The notes beneath the pieces were generated by a model. It did not search any database. It saw only the letters and a list, made by a program, of their open reading frames with translations, and was not told the DNA's origin. A stretch of 32,839 nucleotides of DNA from Planctomyces sp. GTDB lineage: Bacteria > Planctomycetota > Planctomycetia > Planctomycetales > Planctomycetaceae. Shown here piece after piece: positions 2,300-21,053 of the stretch. The position numbers and the translations under genes are program-made. Every line of letters starts with the position of its first letter. Position 1 is the stretch's first letter. The stretch spans positions 1-32,839 of the forward strand of contig JAIXUU010000354.1 of the NCBI GenBank assembly GCA_027483405.1, given 5' to 3'.

Positions 2300-4636
2300 A
2301 TGCGTCAGACACCCCAGGATTCCGAATTGGCATCATCCTTCGAAACCGAAGGCGAAGGAGGCCTTTCGATTGACTGGATGAATCTGGTCTTCCGCTACCG
2401 CTGGTGGCTGTGTGCAGGTGTCGTGCTGGGTCTCGGTTTAGGGATCGCTGCCTACATAAAATTGGGGCCGGAATACATGGCCATTGGCCAGGTGATGGTT
2501 TCCCGCCGCAATGCCGTCCCGCTCAAAGAACAAAGTGCGATGGGGGACTGGGGTGAACGCAGCGAACACATCGCCTTGATCATGAGTCCCATGATTGCCA
2601 GCGAAGCCGTACGTCTTGGTCAGCTCGACAAGCTCAAAACGTTTGCCGGTGAGAGCGACCCTACGCAGATGGTACTCGATGACCTCAAGGTCAAACGCGT
2701 GGCCGGTCAGGATCGCTCCTACCTCAACGTGCTCGATGTCACGTTTCAAAGTGCCAGTGCCGACGATGCCCGTCACGTCGTCAAAGCCGTCATCGATGCC
2801 TATGCCAGTTATCTCAATGAATCCCGCAGTGAGAAAACCACAGAAGTTTTCAAAACCGCGCAGGAGGCTCACGATACTCTCCAGAAATCCCTGCGCGAGA
2901 AAGAAGAGGCGTATCTCAAGTTTCGCGAGTCGGCTCCTTTGCAGTGGAGGGCTCCCATTGGAGCGATTGCCGCCGATGGCACATCTGGTGCCACCAACGT
3001 CCATCAGGAACGTGTCATCGCTGTCGAGGAGCAGCGCCGGCTGAATCTGTTGCGACGGACAGAAATCAATTCACGCATGCAGGCTTTACAGAAAGCCCAG
3101 GATCAAGGCGAATCCACCTCGACGATGGAAATGCTCATCCGCCGCTTCATTGCCAACGATGGCTCGGGAGCTGAACTTCAACAGCAGCAACAGGAAATCT
3201 CCGCCTTCGAGAATCGTTTACTCCCTCTCATTCTCGAAGAAGAAAAGTTACTGCGAGACTTCGGGCCCGATCATCCCGAAGTCAAAGCCGTTCGCAAATC
3301 GATCGATACCACGCTCGATTTCTATCGCAAGCATGGTCTCCGTATGCCCGATGACATGACGCCCGGCCCCGATGGTAAGCCGCTCATTAAGGAACGTGCG
3401 AACCTCGTCCAGAACTACATGGAAACTTTGCGACAGCAGCTCAAAGAGCTCGACATCCGCGAACAGCAGCTCAATGTTCTCTTTGAACTGGAATCCAACA
3501 AAGCCAAAGAGTACGCGCGTTTTCAGGCCGAAGATCAGGCCATGACGGCCGAACTCAACCGCCTGCGCAGTCTCTGGGGTCAACTCGTCGATCGCATGAG
3601 TCAACTCACTATCGACAAAGAATCCAGCGGCTACACACTCCGCCAGACAGGCCCGATCAAAGACGAATGGGTCCTCAAACGACTACTCAAAATTGTCGGA
3701 GCAGGCATGGTGGCCGGGATGGGCCTGATCATCTCGTTGATTGTCCTCAAGGAGTTCCTCAGCAATCAGGTGCGTACAGTTCGAGAAGTGCGCCAATTGC
3801 TTCCCGAAGCCTATCTGGGGGCTGTGACCTCTTTCGATCCCGAGCAAAGCCGCCTCGACCCGGTACAGAATGTTCATCCTTCACTCAGATATCTAAGGTC
3901 GCCCGCCTCCATCGAAGCCGAGAATTACCGCACCATCCGCACGTCGTTGCTCGTCACTGCCGAAGCTCTGAACGCGCAAGTGATTCAGGTCGGCAGTCCC
4001 GAGCCAGGCGACGGAAAGACCACACTCGTCTCGAATCTGGCACTCGCACTGGCCAGCTCCGGCAAACGAGTCCTGCTCATCGATGCCGATCTCAGACGCC
4101 CTATGGCCACTCGGCTCTTTGGCTTAAGGCCCGATCCGGGACTTGTCGACGTTCTCCAGGGAGAAATTGCCCTCGAAAATGCCATTGTCGAAACCGTTGT
4201 CGAGGGCTTAACCATCCTCCCCTCCGGCAGACCGCCGCATAACCCGGCAGAACTGCTCGAAGGTGGGCCGCTGCGTCAGTTGATCGCCAAGGCTCGAACT
4301 TTGGCCGATATCGTGCTGATCGATGCCCCGCCCGTCCTCGCAGTGAGCGATGCCTGCATCATCGGCCAACACGTCGATGGCTATCTGCTCACTGTCCGCT
4401 TAGGGAAAAACCGTCGCCCCATGCTCAGGCGTTCGCGCGATCTCCTCCTGGCACATCACATCCCGATTCTGGGTGTGGTTGCCAATGGCGTCGAACCCAG
4501 CGACCGCGAGGAAATGGGCTACTACGCCGACTACAACCGCAATGAAGCCTTCTTTCCTCAAGACGAGTCATCGCCGGAGAAATCATCGACTCATCGAGAT
4601 TTGACCATATCAACCAGTCCCGTGAGGCAGCCGTAA
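2300..4636 (+). CDS. Polysaccharide biosynthesis tyrosine autokinase (Wzz chain-length domain fused to BY-kinase)
   Basis: The 778-residue protein has the classic Wzc-type layout. A Wzz N-terminal segment carries a first transmembrane helix (about residues 33-55), followed by a long coiled-coil-rich region facing the periplasm (about 190-440) and a second transmembrane helix (about 458-485). The cytoplasmic kinase domain follows. It shows Walker A (SPEPGDGKTT, about 567), Walker A' (LLIDADLRRP, about 593) and Walker B (IVLIDAPP, about 671). A modest C-terminal tyrosine cluster (GYYADYN, about 740) is the expected autophosphorylation tail, poorer in Tyr than E. coli Wzc. Such proteins control polymerisation and export of capsular or exopolysaccharide with a Wza-type outer-membrane porin, which is not in this window. 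ATG at 2300 is preceded by AGGA with good spacing. The call is secure; the exported polymer is unknown. Confidence 0.93.
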   Translation: MRQTPQDSELASSFETEGEGGLSIDWMNLVFRYRWWLCAGVVLGLGLGIAAYIKLGPEYMAIGQVMVSRRNAVPLKEQSAMGDWGERSEHIALIMSPMIASEAVRLGQLDKLKTFAGESDPTQMVLDDLKVKRVAGQDRSYLNVLDVTFQSASADDARHVVKAVIDAYASYLNESRSEKTTEVFKTAQEAHDTLQKSLREKEEAYLKFRESAPLQWRAPIGAIAADGTSGATNVHQERVIAVEEQRRLNLLRRTEINSRMQALQKAQDQGESTSTMEMLIRRFIANDGSGAELQQQQQEISAFENRLLPLILEEEKLLRDFGPDHPEVKAVRKSIDTTLDFYRKHGLRMPDDMTPGPDGKPLIKERANLVQNYMETLRQQLKELDIREQQLNVLFELESNKAKEYARFQAEDQAMTAELNRLRSLWGQLVDRMSQLTIDKESSGYTLRQTGPIKDEWVLKRLLKIVGAGMVAGMGLIISLIVLKEFLSNQVRTVREVRQLLPEAYLGAVTSFDPEQSRLDPVQNVHPSLRYLRSPASIEAENYRTIRTSLLVTAEALNAQVIQVGSPEPGDGKTTLVSNLALALASSGKRVLLIDADLRRPMATRLFGLRPDPGLVDVLQGEIALENAIVETVVEGLTILPSGRPPHNPAELLEGGPLRQLIAKARTLADIVLIDAPPVLAVSDACIIGQHVDGYLLTVRLGKNRRPMLRRSRDLLLAHHIPILGVVANGVEPSDREEMGYYADYNRNEAFFPQDESSPEKSSTHRDLTISTSPVRQP

Positions 4637-15428: not shown

Positions 15429-16601
15429 TCAGGAGTGAACGTGGACATAGCCTTCGGGCGATTCGCTGAAATCGACCGTCTGGTCGCTGACAATGAATTT
15501 CCCACTGGTGCCAATCAGACCTGCTGCCACGAAGATCGCCAGCGAACCTAACGGCAGTGTCCAGATGGGCCAGTCGAACTGTTTGGCAGTCATGACAACC
15601 AGAATGTTCATAGCAGCCATTGGAATCAGGCCCAGCCACGCCAGATTCATCAATTGATCGAAGCGGAAGCGGGGGATCGTCCAGCGGATAAACATGATCA
15701 GCAGAATGATCATCAGAACTTTTGTCAGCAGCACCACCACTTTGACCAGAGTTGCTCCCAGATACGCACTGTCGGCTTCCGCGATCAAAGGGAACTGCCA
15801 GCCACCGAAGAAGAGAATGGCAGTCAGGAAGCAGACGGTTATGATGTGTGCATATTCACCCAGGAAATAGAGGGCGAATTTCATCGAGCTGTATTCGGTA
15901 TGAAAACCACCGACAAGTTCCTGCTCACATTCGGAAAGGTCGAAGGGGAGGCGATTGGTTTCGGCCAGAGCGGAGACGAAGAAGATCAGCAGTGCGAGTG
16001 GCTGTGTCCAGACATTCCAGCCGAGAACGCCCTGATTCGCCTGATGCATGAGAATATCGTTGAGACTCAAAGAACTGGTCATCAGCACGACACCAATGAT
16101 CGACATCCCCAGAGGAATTTCATAGCTCACGACCTGAGCACTGGCCCGCATGGAGCCTAACGAACTGTACTTGTTGTTCGATGCCCAGCCGCCGAGAATC
16201 ACTCCATAGACACCCAGGCTGCCCACACAAAAAATGTAAATCATCCCGATGTTGACATCGGGAGCGATGACAAACCGCATCCATGAAGGTGCCTGATCGA
16301 CAGGTCCGAAGGGGACGATGGCAAAGCCGGCCATGGCAGTAAAGACGGCGATGCTGGGGCCCAGGATATAGAGCGTTTTGTTGACGTAACCGGGGATCAC
16401 GTCTTCCTTGAGCAGGAATTTGGCACCATCAGCAATGGGCTGCAGCAGACCGGCCCAGCCGACACGGTTCGGGCCGTAGCGGTCCTGAATAAAGGCGGCC
16501 AGACGTCGCTCGACCAGGATCAGATAGGCAATTGTGCCCATCAACCCCCCGAAGGCCACACCAATCGTTATCAACGTGACGAGGAAGAATTCCCAACTCA
16601 C
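15429..16601 (-). CDS. nuoH: NADH-quinone oxidoreductase subunit H
   Basis: NuoH is the membrane subunit forming the quinone-access chamber at the junction with the peripheral arm. Signature stretches: RYGPNRVGWAGLLQPIADG near the N-terminus, GWASNNKYSSLGSMRASAQ, VSYEIPLG, NRLPFDLSECEQELVGGF, and HTEYSSMKFALYFLGEY, all near-invariant quinone-site loops. The 390-residue length is slightly above E. coli (325). It starts with GTG at 16601 and overlaps the nuoG stop by 4 bp (GTGA), so it is translationally coupled. Secure. Confidence 0.97.
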   Translation of the reverse strand: MSWEFFLVTLITIGVAFGGLMGTIAYLILVERRLAAFIQDRYGPNRVGWAGLLQPIADGAKFLLKEDVIPGYVNKTLYILGPSIAVFTAMAGFAIVPFGPVDQAPSWMRFVIAPDVNIGMIYIFCVGSLGVYGVILGGWASNNKYSSLGSMRASAQVVSYEIPLGMSIIGVVLMTSSLSLNDILMHQANQGVLGWNVWTQPLALLIFFVSALAETNRLPFDLSECEQELVGGFHTEYSSMKFALYFLGEYAHIITVCFLTAILFFGGWQFPLIAEADSAYLGATLVKVVVLLTKVLMIILLIMFIRWTIPRFRFDQLMNLAWLGLIPMAAMNILVVMTAKQFDWPIWTLPLGSLAIFVAAGLIGTSGKFIVSDQTVDFSESPEGYVHVHS

Positions 16602-18307
16602 GATCGGCTACCTCCTGTAACAGGAACTTGTGTCTCAGAGTCGGCTGCAGAGGCCGTCTCACCTGCCGATTTCAGGAAAATCCCTTCATCGCCCAGGTCA
16701 CCCACAATCAATGCGGCCAGTGCAGGAATCTCACCAGCAATTTCCTGACGGATGGTGGGAGCGTGGAATATACCTGTCCGACCTGCCAGCTCAAAACAGA
16801 TCCGCCCATCGGGCCAGGCATCGCCCGGCGAACGTAAGCCGCGATGAATGGCTTGTGCCAGACCTGCGTGATTGACGAATGTGCCATCACGCTCGGCCCA
16901 CGAAGTGCCAGGCAACACAAATGTCGCCCAGGGAAGAGCGGGGGAATCGAGCAGATCCTGCACAATCACCAGTTTCGCCTTGGCCAGTGACTTGGCCTGC
17001 TCATCGGTGATCCAGCCTTCAGGGGATCCCGCAGTCAGATAGACCGCTTCGAGAGTTCCCTGAGAGACCTGCGCTAAAATCGAGTCGAGCGACTCGACTG
17101 TTCCTCCAAAGTGATGGAGTACCAGTTCCACACCAGCACGGTTCGGGGCTTTTTCGGCTCGAATGGTAAATTTGGGTTGAGGAGCGGCCTGCCCGCGCAG
17201 ATCTTTCGGATACGAATCATCTGCACCCACAACGGGGGCGGGTGTCATCAACAACCTGGCGGCAGGTGAGAGAGACTTCAGATATTTGCAGAGTAGGTAA
17301 GCCTCTTCGACCGTCATGAAGGGAGTCAGCACGACCGCCAGTTTTTCAGGAGCCCTTTTGGCAGCTTCTGTGAGGGCCTGTCGCAAAGCAGGAAGAATTT
17401 GTGGCCAGGAAACGGGGGTGATCCCTGCAGGGAGCTTCTGCATGGGGAACTTCAGGCGATGCTCGGAGTGAATGTACTTCCAGCCGAAGCGACCTTCGTC
17501 GCACATGAACTCGCCCTGTGCGAGCGGGTTTGAGCGTGGCTTGAGTCGGTAGACGACATCTTTGTTCTGATCGACGCGAATGCTGCAACCTGTGCTGCAA
17601 CCGGCGCAGACCGAGTTCTTCCCTTTCAGCCACCACACACGCTGCTCATAGAGAAAATCTTTGCTGCAGAGGGCACCGACAGGGCAGAGATCGACGACGT
17701 TGCCAGCCAGTTTGTTGTTGCAGGGCTTACCAGGGAAGATGTCGATTTCTTCGCCCGAGCCACGGCTGACAACCTGCAACTCAGCGGTGCCGGAGATTTC
17801 ACGGGTGAATCGCACGCAGCGGGTACACATGATGCAGCGATCAGTGAAGAGAGTGATCTGATCGCCGATATAAGGCTTGTCTTTTTTCTGGTTTTTGGGC
17901 TCTGCCAGACGACTGTAAGCCCGGCCGTACTTGAAGCTGAAATCCTGTAGACCACATTCGCCAGCCTGATCACACACGGGGCAGTCGAGAGGATGATTCA
18001 GCAGCAGGTATTCGAGTGTCCCTCGCTGGGCGGCCTGCACCTTGGGGGAATTGGTGACGATCACAGTGCCATCTTTAACGGGAGTCTGGCAGCCGGGGAC
18101 AACCTTGGGAACCATCGCGACGGTTCCATCGGGTTTTTTGTCACCAACTTCCACCAGGCACATACGGCAACTGGCGACGACTGACAAGCTGGGATGCCAG
18201 CAGTAGTGCGGGATTTCCACACCAGCTTTCTGAGCTGCCTGAATACAGTTCAGCCGTTCGTCTGGCTTGAGTTCGACAGGCTGATCGTTGACATAAACTG
18301 TGGGCAT
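16598..18307 (-). CDS. nuoG: NADH-quinone oxidoreductase subunit G
   Basis: NuoG is the largest peripheral subunit and carries electrons from NuoF/NuoE. Cluster ligands are visible in order. The [2Fe-2S] ligands are C36, C47, C50 and C73. A His/Cys cluster is in HPLDCPVCDQAGECGLQ. A 4Fe-4S cluster is in CIMCTRCVRF with a later CPVGALC. A further CxxCxxxCx27C motif (CAGCSTGC...MCDEGRFG) is the pattern of the off-pathway N7 cluster. The molybdopterin-oxidoreductase-like C-terminal part is short, so the protein is 569 residues versus about 900 in E. coli, with no sign of frameshift. Start at 18307 (MPTVYVNDQ). The upstream spacer holds the four-helix-bundle element. Secure. Confidence 0.96.
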   Translation of the reverse strand: MPTVYVNDQPVELKPDERLNCIQAAQKAGVEIPHYCWHPSLSVVASCRMCLVEVGDKKPDGTVAMVPKVVPGCQTPVKDGTVIVTNSPKVQAAQRGTLEYLLLNHPLDCPVCDQAGECGLQDFSFKYGRAYSRLAEPKNQKKDKPYIGDQITLFTDRCIMCTRCVRFTREISGTAELQVVSRGSGEEIDIFPGKPCNNKLAGNVVDLCPVGALCSKDFLYEQRVWWLKGKNSVCAGCSTGCSIRVDQNKDVVYRLKPRSNPLAQGEFMCDEGRFGWKYIHSEHRLKFPMQKLPAGITPVSWPQILPALRQALTEAAKRAPEKLAVVLTPFMTVEEAYLLCKYLKSLSPAARLLMTPAPVVGADDSYPKDLRGQAAPQPKFTIRAEKAPNRAGVELVLHHFGGTVESLDSILAQVSQGTLEAVYLTAGSPEGWITDEQAKSLAKAKLVIVQDLLDSPALPWATFVLPGTSWAERDGTFVNHAGLAQAIHRGLRSPGDAWPDGRICFELAGRTGIFHAPTIRQEIAGEIPALAALIVGDLGDEGIFLKSAGETASAADSETQVPVTGGSRS

Positions 18308-18343
18308 GTTAAGAAGCTTGTTTGAATAGGTGTAAGTAAAAAA

Positions 18344-18820
18344 GGGAAGAAGTAATGAAGGTAAGAAGCCAGAAAATGGGTTCAGAATCTAGATCAAGTT
18401 GCTGGCAATCGTCTGCCTGAAAGCAATGAGCATTCTTGAGACTTCATCTAAATTTGCCTGCATATTCCGGCAGTCACTTTCACTAATGTATCCCAGTTGT
18501 AATGCAATCTCCCAATGAGTATCGAGTTCTGCCAACGAACCAATCGCAATCTGCAGGAAATGAAGCATTGACCATACGCTTTTCCTTCCGAAATGTTCGC
18601 TGAAGCGGAAATTGATGCTCTTCGTATCTGACTTGTCAGTCCAAATTGCTCGTGTCGGGGAAACGCTTCGGTGATCTGATAACAAGCTTTCGCGATATCA
18701 ATCGATTTTTTCCAAACGATCAAATCCCGATGATCACCGACAGCCATGGAGATTCTCCGCTCATCGTGCCAAGTCAACACTTGATTGGAAAATCTGACTT
18801 TTCACCTTCATCCCTTCCCC
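18344..18820 (-). mobile_element. Candidate intervening-sequence-like element with complementary ends, inside the nuo operon
   Basis: The four-helix-bundle pseudogene is bracketed by inverted complementary sequences. In the minus-strand transcript GAUGAAGGUGAAAAGUCAG (18812-18794) can pair with CUGGCUUCUUACCUUCAUU (18372-18354): 15 Watson-Crick pairs, 3 G-U pairs and 1 mismatch over 19. The arms extend outward through a GGGAAG match after a small bulge. Intervening sequences in bacterial 23S rRNA are known to encode this protein type and to have complementary ends. Here the same architecture sits between two mRNA genes. The arms are purine-rich, so chance is not excluded. Boundaries are approximate. 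Confidence 0.45.
18389..18747 (-). pseudogene. Four-helix-bundle protein (23S rRNA intervening-sequence type), frameshifted
   Basis: Two overlapping minus-strand frames together make one typical four-helix-bundle protein. Frame one gives MAVGDHRDLIVWKKSIDIAK, then FGLTSQIRRASISASANISEG. Frame two continues FGRKSVWSMLHFLQIAIGSLAELDTHWEIALQLGYIS to the stop at 18389. The break falls exactly at the family's conserved NI.EG.GR junction. ATG 18747 is preceded by GGAG with good spacing. Inserting a second TTCGGAAGGA at the break restores ANISEGFGRKS perfectly, so one copy of a 10-bp direct repeat was probably lost. Intact proteins of this family accompany rRNA intervening sequences and other loci; their function is unclear. 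It sits in the nuoF-nuoG spacer. Confidence 0.8.
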
Positions 18821-18839
18821 TCTTCTCCCCTCATCACAA

Positions 18840-20171
18840 TTAGTGCGCCCCGATCAGTTCACATGGTTTAATTGTCGAGCGGCCGCTCTGGATGTACTCT
18901 TCGAATTCACTGCGGAATTTGCGGATGGCATTTTTCACAGGCCAGCCGGCACCATCGGCCAGACCGCAAATTGTTGTACCGGGCATCATCCCGATTCCAC
19001 CAGAAACTTCCAACAACAGGTCGAGATCTTCCATCCGGCCCTGACCGCTGCGAATCCGATGCAGAATTCGCTGCATCCAGTTCGTCCCTTCCCGGCAAGG
19101 GGTGCATTGGCCGCACGATTCGTGAGCGAAGAAGCGGGCCGTGTTGTAGACCACATCGACCATACTGGTCTGATCATCAATCACCACGACGGCAGCAGTT
19201 CCAAGACCCAGGCAACCGACCTTTCCTGGACCGTTGAAATCGAGAGGAGTGTCGAGTTCGGAGGGAGCGAGAAAGCCCATGCTGATCCCACCCGGGACGA
19301 CGGCTTTAATCCCGCGACCACCGGGAACACCACCACCATACTCTTGAATCAACTGACGAGCAGTGATCCCCAGCGGAACTTCGTAGCAGCCGGGCTTGTT
19401 GACATGGCCGGAGAGGCAGTAGAGCTTGGGACCATAGCTGCCGGCATCGCGAGGATTGTTCGGGTCAGGCGGTACGCCAATCGATTTGAACCAGTCGATG
19501 CCGCGCTTCAGAATTTGAGTCACGCAGGCCATGGTTTCGATGTTGTTGACGATCGTTGGCTTGCGGAAGAGGCCTTCGATGGCGGGGAAGGGTGGCTTGA
19601 TCCGCGGCCAGGCTCGCTTGCCTTCCAGGCTTTCGATGAGGCCGGTTTCTTCACCGCAGATGTAGGCAGCCGCACCACGGTGCAGGCGGACATCCAGATC
19701 GAAGCCCGAGCCGAAGACGTTCTTCCCGAAGATCCCTTTTTCATAACATTCAGCAACAGCCTTTTGCAGGGCTCGCCAGGCGGCTCCGTATTCATAGCGG
19801 AGGTAGAGGTATGCCGTATTCGAACGGATGGCGTAGCAGCTGATGGCAATCCCTTCGAGGACCTGGTGAGGATCTTTTTCAAGCAGGATGCGATTATTAA
19901 ATGTGCCGGGTTCGCTTTCGTCGCCGTTGACAGCGAGATAGATCGGGCCGGGATGATCTTTGGGGAGGAACGTCCATTTGAGGCCAGTGGGAAAGCCTGC
20001 GCCGCCGCGACCACGCAGGCCGGAATCTTTGACCAGAGTGGTGACTTCGACAGGCGTCATACCGAGCGCCTTTTTGAAGCTTTCGTATCCCCCATCGGCC
20101 AGATAGCTGTCGAGAGTATGACTCTGCTCTTTGTGGATGCGAGCCAGAAGGACAGGTTCATAGGTGGACAT
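18840..20171 (-). CDS. nuoF: NADH-quinone oxidoreductase subunit F (FMN- and NADH-binding)
   Basis: NuoF binds NADH and FMN and hands electrons to cluster N3. Evidence along the 443 residues: the glycine-rich GLRGRGGAGFPTGLKW near residue 50, the FMN/NADH segment VNGDESEPGTFNNRILLEKDP, GAAAYICGEETGLIESLEG, and the N3 cluster ligands ESCGQCTPCREGTNW followed by TTICGLADG. The ATG start at 20171 has only a weak ribosome binding site. Unlike a compact nuo operon, this gene is bracketed by extra modules: 56 bp upstream lies the small protein of the kinase pair, and downstream lies the four-helix-bundle element. Secure. Confidence 0.97.
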   Translation of the reverse strand: MSTYEPVLLARIHKEQSHTLDSYLADGGYESFKKALGMTPVEVTTLVKDSGLRGRGGAGFPTGLKWTFLPKDHPGPIYLAVNGDESEPGTFNNRILLEKDPHQVLEGIAISCYAIRSNTAYLYLRYEYGAAWRALQKAVAECYEKGIFGKNVFGSGFDLDVRLHRGAAAYICGEETGLIESLEGKRAWPRIKPPFPAIEGLFRKPTIVNNIETMACVTQILKRGIDWFKSIGVPPDPNNPRDAGSYGPKLYCLSGHVNKPGCYEVPLGITARQLIQEYGGGVPGGRGIKAVVPGGISMGFLAPSELDTPLDFNGPGKVGCLGLGTAAVVVIDDQTSMVDVVYNTARFFAHESCGQCTPCREGTNWMQRILHRIRSGQGRMEDLDLLLEVSGGIGMMPGTTICGLADGAGWPVKNAIRKFRSEFEEYIQSGRSTIKPCELIGAH

Positions 20172-20227: not shown

Positions 20228-20482
20228 TTACTCGTGCGGAAGGTTCTGGATAGAGAGTTCTCGTTTGACCTGATTAGCAATCAATTCGTAGCAAGGCAGA
20301 TTTTTGATTTCTTCGTCTGAGGGCCAGACATACACAATCTTTCCGTCCTGCCACGTACTGGCCGGAATTCCATGCAACCAGTTCTCGCGAACTGCTTCCT
20401 GAACTGCTTCAAAGACAACCTCATCAAAAATGTCGTGGGTATTTTCAGGGTAACGCTCAATCAAATCGATGTGATCTTGCAT
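20228..20482 (-). CDS. Small acidic protein paired with a zeta-like kinase; putative antitoxin or partner
   Basis: The 84-residue protein has no domain I can name. It begins MQDHIDLIERYPENTHDIFDE, is rich in acidic residues, and includes ENWLHGIPASTWQDGKIVYVWPSDEE. The track starts at TTG 20512. ATG 20482 is better: it has GAGAG about 8 nt upstream and gives a 26-bp overlap with the kinase gene instead of 56 bp. The overlap implies coupled translation. Pairing with a zeta-like kinase suggests a toxin-antitoxin or accessory role, but gene order is the reverse of classical epsilon-zeta, and there is no visible resemblance to epsilon. The gene is well supported; its function is not. Confidence 0.7.
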   Translation of the reverse strand: MQDHIDLIERYPENTHDIFDEVVFEAVQEAVRENWLHGIPASTWQDGKIVYVWPSDEEIKNLPCYELIANQVKRELSIQNLPHE

Positions 20483-21053
20483 TGAAAAACTCTCGCCAGA
20501 GATGAGGTTCAAAAACTTCGATTTGTTGAGTTTGGATCCGCGCTATCAGTTTTTGAATACCAATGTTCCGGTTGTCATAAATTCGGCAACTATCCACAAG
20601 TGGTAGATAGATCTCGAATAGATTGTCTATCGTTCGAGAGTATCTACGCCTGACTGTTTCCTCAGGGATGTCGTGTCCTCCTTTGAGAACCCTTTGCCGA
20701 ACTCGTTCCAAAGCGAGTTCAACCGAAGGGAGCCATAGGAAGAACAGTTCGATCCGATAACCTTTCTCTTTCAATTGCTGCAGCCGAACCGCATGTGTCC
20801 TGCTTGAGAGCGTGGATTCAAAGGCGAAACTCACGTGAGTCTTAGCCAATTCCTCCAGACGACTGAGCATCAGCCGACTGGCTTCAATATGAACTGTACG
20901 ATCCGGTGCTTTTGATAATCCTTTCGCTATGACATCTGCATTCACAAATTCCTGAATGCTCAGAGCTGGCAGAATCTTCTCGGCGATTGTCGATTTTCCA
21001 GATCCATTCGGCCCGCCAAACACCACACATTTCGGTTGATCTGGCGGAACCAT
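20457..21053 (-). CDS. Zeta-toxin-like P-loop kinase (COG4185-like)
   Basis: The 198-residue protein shows a Walker A GGPNGSGKST at residues 13-22 and NADVIAKGL with a candidate catalytic Asp near residue 40. FAFESTLSS follows. The lid-like RVRQRVLKGGHDIPEETVRRRYSRT supplies arginines, followed by NLFEIYLPLVDSC and YDN. This is the pattern of the zeta-toxin-related predicted kinases. True zeta toxins phosphorylate UDP-GlcNAc and block cell-wall synthesis; whether this protein does so is unknown. ATG 21053 has a good AAGGA site. It begins only 30 bp after nuoE and overlaps the next gene, so it must be transcribed within the nuo mRNA unless it has its own promoter. All visible motifs are intact. 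Confidence 0.85.
   Translation of the reverse strand: MVPPDQPKCVVFGGPNGSGKSTIAEKILPALSIQEFVNADVIAKGLSKAPDRTVHIEASRLMLSRLEELAKTHVSFAFESTLSSRTHAVRLQQLKEKGYRIELFFLWLPSVELALERVRQRVLKGGHDIPEETVRRRYSRTIDNLFEIYLPLVDSCRIYDNRNIGIQKLIARIQTQQIEVFEPHLWREFFNARSHRFD

Follow-up and report, generated by a model that had tools for sequence, protein, structure and literature searches.

Inverted arms surrounding a small gene in the spacer between nuoF and nuoG of a Planctomyces sp. are real, and belong to a worn copy of a widespread and apparently undescribed type of small genetic element, in which a four-helix-bundle (4HB) gene of the PF05635/TIGR02436 family is enclosed by arms typically built from tandem 7- to 9-nt repeats that differ from locus to locus but share an AGK core. 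We came to this element through the analysis of a 32,839-nt stretch of DNA (contig JAIXUU010000354.1 of assembly GCA_027483405.1; hereafter the window), for which an initial annotation based on sequence alone had described 19-nt complementary arms at 18354-18372 and 18794-18812. That observation held up. In the minus-strand RNA, 18812-18794 (GATGAAGGTGAAAAGTCAG) pairs with 18372-18354 (CTGGCTTCTTACCTTCATT) through 15 Watson-Crick pairs, 3 G-U pairs and 1 A-C mismatch, exactly as described. On the same strand, nuoF (18840-20171), which has orthologues in 31 of 40 related genomes, and nuoG (16598-18307), identified in related loci by tblastn, are separated by 532 nt, and we found that the 19-nt arms are the inner parts of a longer stem of about 43 nt per side. 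The purine-rich 5' arm (18794-18837) begins about 3 nt after the nuoF stop codon at 18840 and its inverted complement, the 3' arm (18330-18372), ends about 22 nt before the nuoG start codon at 18307.

We next asked whether this stem exceeds what sequence composition alone would produce, a comparison against shuffled controls that the initial annotation had set as a condition for its claim. The best duplex between the two spacers flanking the gene has a predicted energy of -48.7 kcal/mol, whereas dinucleotide shuffles of these spacers give a mean of -38.8 kcal/mol (sd 4.5) and 49 of 2000 do as well, and the single stem is therefore only modestly unusual (about 0.02). When the whole 541-nt minus strand was folded, the arms formed its terminal stem and the fold was better than all but 1 of 100 shuffles (z = -2.84), whereas the plus strand gave z = -0.96. 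A search of the genome for further copies of the arms, likewise called for in advance, found none, with the 5' arm sequence occurring once even when 3 mismatches were allowed. No Rfam family was detected at the site. The decisive evidence that the arms are not accidental is comparative, as detailed below.

Contrary to the initial annotation, which had described an open reading frame tightly enclosed by the arms, the 4HB gene (18389-18747, minus strand) is not a single reading frame. Profile positions 1-51 of PF05635 lie in one frame (18577-18729) and positions 40-105 in another (18425-18622), and the two halves score 64.4 and 49.9 bits against a curated cut-off of 33.8. By contrast, two congeneric genomes, G002 and G003, carry the gene intact at the same place with arms in the same position relative to nuoF and nuoG, and the G002 protein matches TIGR02436 with 117.6 bits (cut-off 24). 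Relative to G002, which reads GGTCAATCAAGGTCAAT at this point, the window lacks 10 nt between two GGTCAAT direct repeats, leaving a single copy at 18567-18573. We considered a programmed frameshift and rejected it because the intact orthologues lack the shift and the lost nucleotides lie between direct repeats, although the genome is a draft of 487 contigs and the frameshift could be an assembly error. No other PF05635 gene was found in this genome. Between G002 and G003 the protein is under purifying selection (dN 0.13, dS 1.29), and the arm cores are more conserved (88% and 74%) than the non-coding stretches next to the gene (51% and 38%). By eye, the whole element (18308-18839) is about 98% identical between the window and G002 (positions 2833-3373 of its locus), although nuoF is 94.6% identical with a dS of 0.23, suggesting either recent exchange or strong constraint. 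A third congener, G001, has a nearly identical NuoF but a 100-nt spacer that aligns to neither end of the element, indicating that its presence varies within the genus. In another genus (G004), the nuoF-nuoG spacer instead holds a HicB-like antitoxin gene (positions 2840-3060 of that locus), so this spacer seems open to small cargo genes. Elsewhere in the same operon of the window, between nuoF and nuoE (20228-21053, minus strand), lie a zeta-toxin-like kinase gene (PF06414, 54.7 bits) and a 94-aa open reading frame without a family match, which together resemble a toxin-antitoxin pair.

To determine if this arrangement extends beyond the window, we scored the best pairing between the 220 nt upstream and the 220 nt downstream of 69 PF05635 genes from 40 related planctomycete genomes. 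Pairs from the same locus had a median score of 20.2, compared to 10.6 when the upstream region of one locus was combined with the downstream region of another and 10.8 for 277 other genes, and 50 of the 69 loci exceeded the 99% mark of these control genes (16.4). We then examined 80 genes from Chloroflexota, Pseudomonadota, Bacteroidota, Acidobacteriota, Planctomycetota, Bacillota, Patescibacteria and others, of which 52 exceeded the cross-locus 99% mark of 17.2, compared to 8 of 266 control genes. The control genes in this second set have a heavy tail of scores reaching 69, probably owing to terminal repeats of insertion sequences, and their own 99th percentile of 34 is passed by only 1 of the 80 loci. 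In a hold-out set of 68 new genes, 58 exceeded their cross-locus 99% mark. Thus 65-85% of the PF05635 genes in these three sets are enclosed by inverted arms, compared to 1-3% of control genes, although homologous loci are not independent observations. Between 15% and 35% of loci show no strong arms. Four loci (L048, L049, L051 and L057) have both inverted arms upstream of the 4HB gene, enclosing a short stretch without an open reading frame, and three of these fall in one clade of the protein tree, from which L057 was absent. In one further locus (L047, genome G035), the 5' arm and the stretch up to the start of the gene are tandemly duplicated, and the 3' arm region looks duplicated as well.

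Inspection of the arms revealed a tandem-repeat structure that the initial annotation had missed. Inside arms, identity is 0.55-0.61 at a lag of 7 nt and 0.52-0.57 at a lag of 14 nt, against roughly 0.22-0.32 at most other lags (lag 8 reaches 0.31-0.36) and 0.27-0.31 at lag 7 outside arms or in control segments. Of 169 arms, 126 have a period of 7 nt, 22 a period of 8 nt (including those of the window's genus), 6 a period of 9 nt and 13 none. Array length centres on 4-5 units (median 33 nt) with a long tail. The repeat unit differs between loci, even within one genome, whereas the two arms of a locus mirror each other in register. By fitting all rotations of the units in the first two sets, we uncovered one shared core, A-G-T/G, on the sense strand of the gene with the other four positions nearly free. 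Because the core was fitted on these sets, only the hold-out, which comes from the same phylum as the first set, is a clean test, and there 27 of 40 unit consensuses carry AGK compared to 14.0 (sd 2.8) after column permutation (0 of 2000 as high) and 1 of 40 on the opposite strand. Arms of other period carry it too (21 of 30; null 15.2, sd 2.3, 12 of 2000 as high). In the window, the 5' arm contains five AGK triplets at 18831-18829, 18821-18819, 18815-18813, 18807-18805 and 18799-18797, the last three spaced 8 and 8. The window, G002 and G003 all have a best lag of 8 with AGK spaced 8 and 8, but the signal in a single arm is weak and does not decide whether the window's own arms are periodic in the manner of the class.

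We also examined where these elements reside. Using codon-usage gene calls, which are approximate, we found that 44 of 46 strong planctomycete loci have a co-directional upstream gene and that the 5' arm usually begins within about 15 nt of its stop codon. Among low-GC loci of the wide set, 20 of 21 arms start between -10 and +24 nt of the stop codon and 17 of 21 end between -1 and +28 nt before the next start codon, and the hold-out shows the same tendency with more scatter. Elements typically fill operon spacers, from one gene's stop codon to about 10-20 nt before the next start. At one such site, between aldehyde dehydrogenase (ALDH) and EutN genes, several genera carry the element with unrelated arms, others have spacers of a few nt, and one genus has only the arms, in spacers of about 100-113 nt with AGK spaced mostly 9 nt and no gene (L125, L127 and L128), which may be solo stems or deletion remnants. 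The protein tree, which has few columns, places one of the loci considered here (L045) in another well-supported clade and did not settle whether the ALDH-EutN insertions have a single origin. Comparison with strains lacking the insert, proposed beforehand as a means of defining its ends, yielded no clean empty site, since the G001 spacer is unrelated and, of two ALDH-EutN spacers from one genus (17 nt in G043, an element in G084), the letters differ. No target-site duplication could be read from these comparisons, leaving undecided whether one was made. Phage carriage was also considered and set aside, as only 39 relatives were found in the viral collection.

Given that G-U pairs should outnumber A-C pairs among imperfect pairs if pairing is selected in RNA, we next tested the inference drawn from the three wobble positions, which had been put forward as pairing in the sense of the nuo transcript. 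Pooled across the three sets, imperfect pairs comprise 320 G-U and 330 A-C, and so the wobble argument fails in general and nothing shows selection for pairing in the mRNA sense; the mirror copy may arise and be kept at the DNA level. The proposal that the element moved from 23S rRNA also has no support, since none of the 149 4HB loci checked carries conserved 23S motifs in its flanks and intercistronic spacers look like the usual home. Overall, the interpretation offered in the initial annotation is partly supported: it correctly recognized an element resembling an rRNA intervening sequence (IVS), with the same protein family, ends that pair and a position in an mRNA spacer, and the element's limits do coincide with the spacer and the arms, but the gene in the window is a frameshifted remnant, and the suggestion that RNase III cuts the stem to separate the NADH-module messages was not examined.

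Collectively, we consider it somewhat more likely than not that the window holds a decayed copy of an element that works as follows. Our data establish with high confidence the anatomy of the element (one 4HB gene enclosed by two inverted arms, each usually of about 4-5 units of 7 nt, or 8 nt in this genus), its periodicity, AGK core and position, its spread across phyla, and purifying selection on the intact protein in this genus. What the protein does with the arms is inferred, and we advance it only tentatively. Solved relatives 2GSC (XCC0516) and 2RLD have five chains each, which suggests, but does not prove, a pentamer. We propose that such a 4HB ring binds the AGK array on the transcript, or on single-stranded DNA, with roughly one unit per subunit. 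In this view, the inverted 3' arm brings the ends of the element together so that it folds into a closed stem that can be bound or cut out of the host mRNA, for instance by RNase III, without harm to the flanking reading frames, which would explain why it survives in operon spacers as rRNA IVSs survive in 23S loops. The arm letters would then be free to change at each locus except for the AGK core and the mirror copy, and the element might perhaps move between operon spacers. Because the protein is broken in the window, only the passive stem could still act there. Binding, cleavage and movement were not assayed, and the absence of a G-U excess, an array length that is not sharply five units, similar tracts and hairpins away from 4HB genes, the loci without strong arms, the clade with its inverted arms upstream of the gene and the weak repeat signal of the window itself weigh against the model. 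If correct, it would nonetheless give a concrete handle on what this protein binds, may explain heptamer repeats described without explanation in other bacteria, would connect rRNA IVSs, operon-spacer hairpins and the Avd family, and may reveal a new way of reading nucleic acid. PF05635/TIGR02436 genes are very common, occurring in about half of 294 Planctomycetota genomes sampled with up to 15 matches per genome and with at least 570 relatives in one collection scan, yet outside 23S rRNA and retroelements no role is known to us.

Of the alternatives, the one that survives best, though we consider it unlikely, is that the arms act at the DNA level, with the 4HB protein or a host enzyme recognizing a hairpin or the G-rich strand during replication or transposition and template switching keeping the arms complementary, such that pairing in RNA is a by-product. 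Equal numbers of G-U and A-C pairs are expected for neutral decay of DNA repeats, and the mirroring of the two arms in register despite changing units also fits this view. However, the sense-strand location of the AGK core and the nearly always co-directional upstream gene point to something read in the transcript. Somewhat less likely is that the hairpins are a host repeat class of their own, like the GGGAATC tracts of Xanthomonas, which form about 70 inverted pairs per genome near stop codons, and that the 4HB gene is a secondary passenger or a recruited host factor. Repeat tracts and solo hairpins do occur without the gene, both at L125, L127 and L128 and in a 400-kb stretch of one relative (G016), on which our repeat counts rest and which also contains several palindromes sharing ACAAGCC(C)G-type ends, a REP-like family. 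Nonetheless, most 4HB genes in many phyla are enclosed by arms while control genes almost never are, and solo hairpins can equally be deletion products, as the shared ALDH-EutN site suggests. That a 23S rRNA IVS jumped into the nuo spacer and now makes an RNase III site there is very unlikely given the absence of 23S sequence at the site and of 23S motifs at the loci checked, despite the shared protein family and pairing ends. Chance pairing of purine-rich and pyrimidine-rich spacer ends, weakly plausible for the window alone, is refuted for the class by the comparative sets, including the hold-out, and is countered by arm conservation between G002 and G003.

Literature searches on TIGR02436, heptamers, S23 and Avd found no description of the arms and no paper linking heptamers to the 4HB gene, although these covered only openly licensed papers, not subscription journals or preprints, and an earlier description cannot be excluded. 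With regard to known systems, TRAP offers an analogy for the proposed way of working, in that a protein ring reads one short triplet per subunit along an RNA array, but it is an unrelated protein and its triplets are spaced about 5 nt rather than 7-9 nt apart. REP sequences with RAYT (TnpA-REP) genes similarly comprise a gene flanked by inverted repeat units that also occur alone in spacers, whereas here only PF05635, and no Y1 transposase, was found in the two frames between the arms and units are not shared between loci. Unlike an IS or MITE, whose copies share one terminal repeat sequence, the arm sequence is private to each locus. Avd of diversity-generating retroelements is a related 4HB protein, but the match to its equivalog model (34.5 bits) falls below the curated cut-off of 80, and no reverse transcriptase or template repeat was found next to the element in the window. 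The TAACTGA repeats of Beggiatoaceae (MacGregor 2015, PMC4679880) are also intergenic tandem heptamers next to start and stop codons, but they are direct repeats of one unit, almost never inverted, and we found no mention of a 4HB gene. The 23S rRNA IVSs with an S23/IVP open reading frame in Leptospira and Coxiella (PMC4990558) share the protein family, the enclosure of one gene by inverted terminal repeats that pair in the host transcript (a pairing that is predicted here) and a scattered distribution. The Coxiella IVS has a 28-bp stem cut by RNase III, cleavage that has not been shown for the present element, which sits in an operon spacer rather than in 23S rRNA and has arms of tandem 7-9 nt arrays with an AGK core. 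Finally, the GGGAATC repeats of Xanthomonas and GGGGAYT repeats of Nostoc (Rehm 2015, PMC4692102) are tandem heptamers near stop codons on the sense strand, between aligned genes and often as inverted pairs, about 70 per genome in Xanthomonas, with no link to mobile elements; there, one unit is shared across a genome and no gene was linked to it, whereas here the unit is private to each locus and encloses a 4HB gene.
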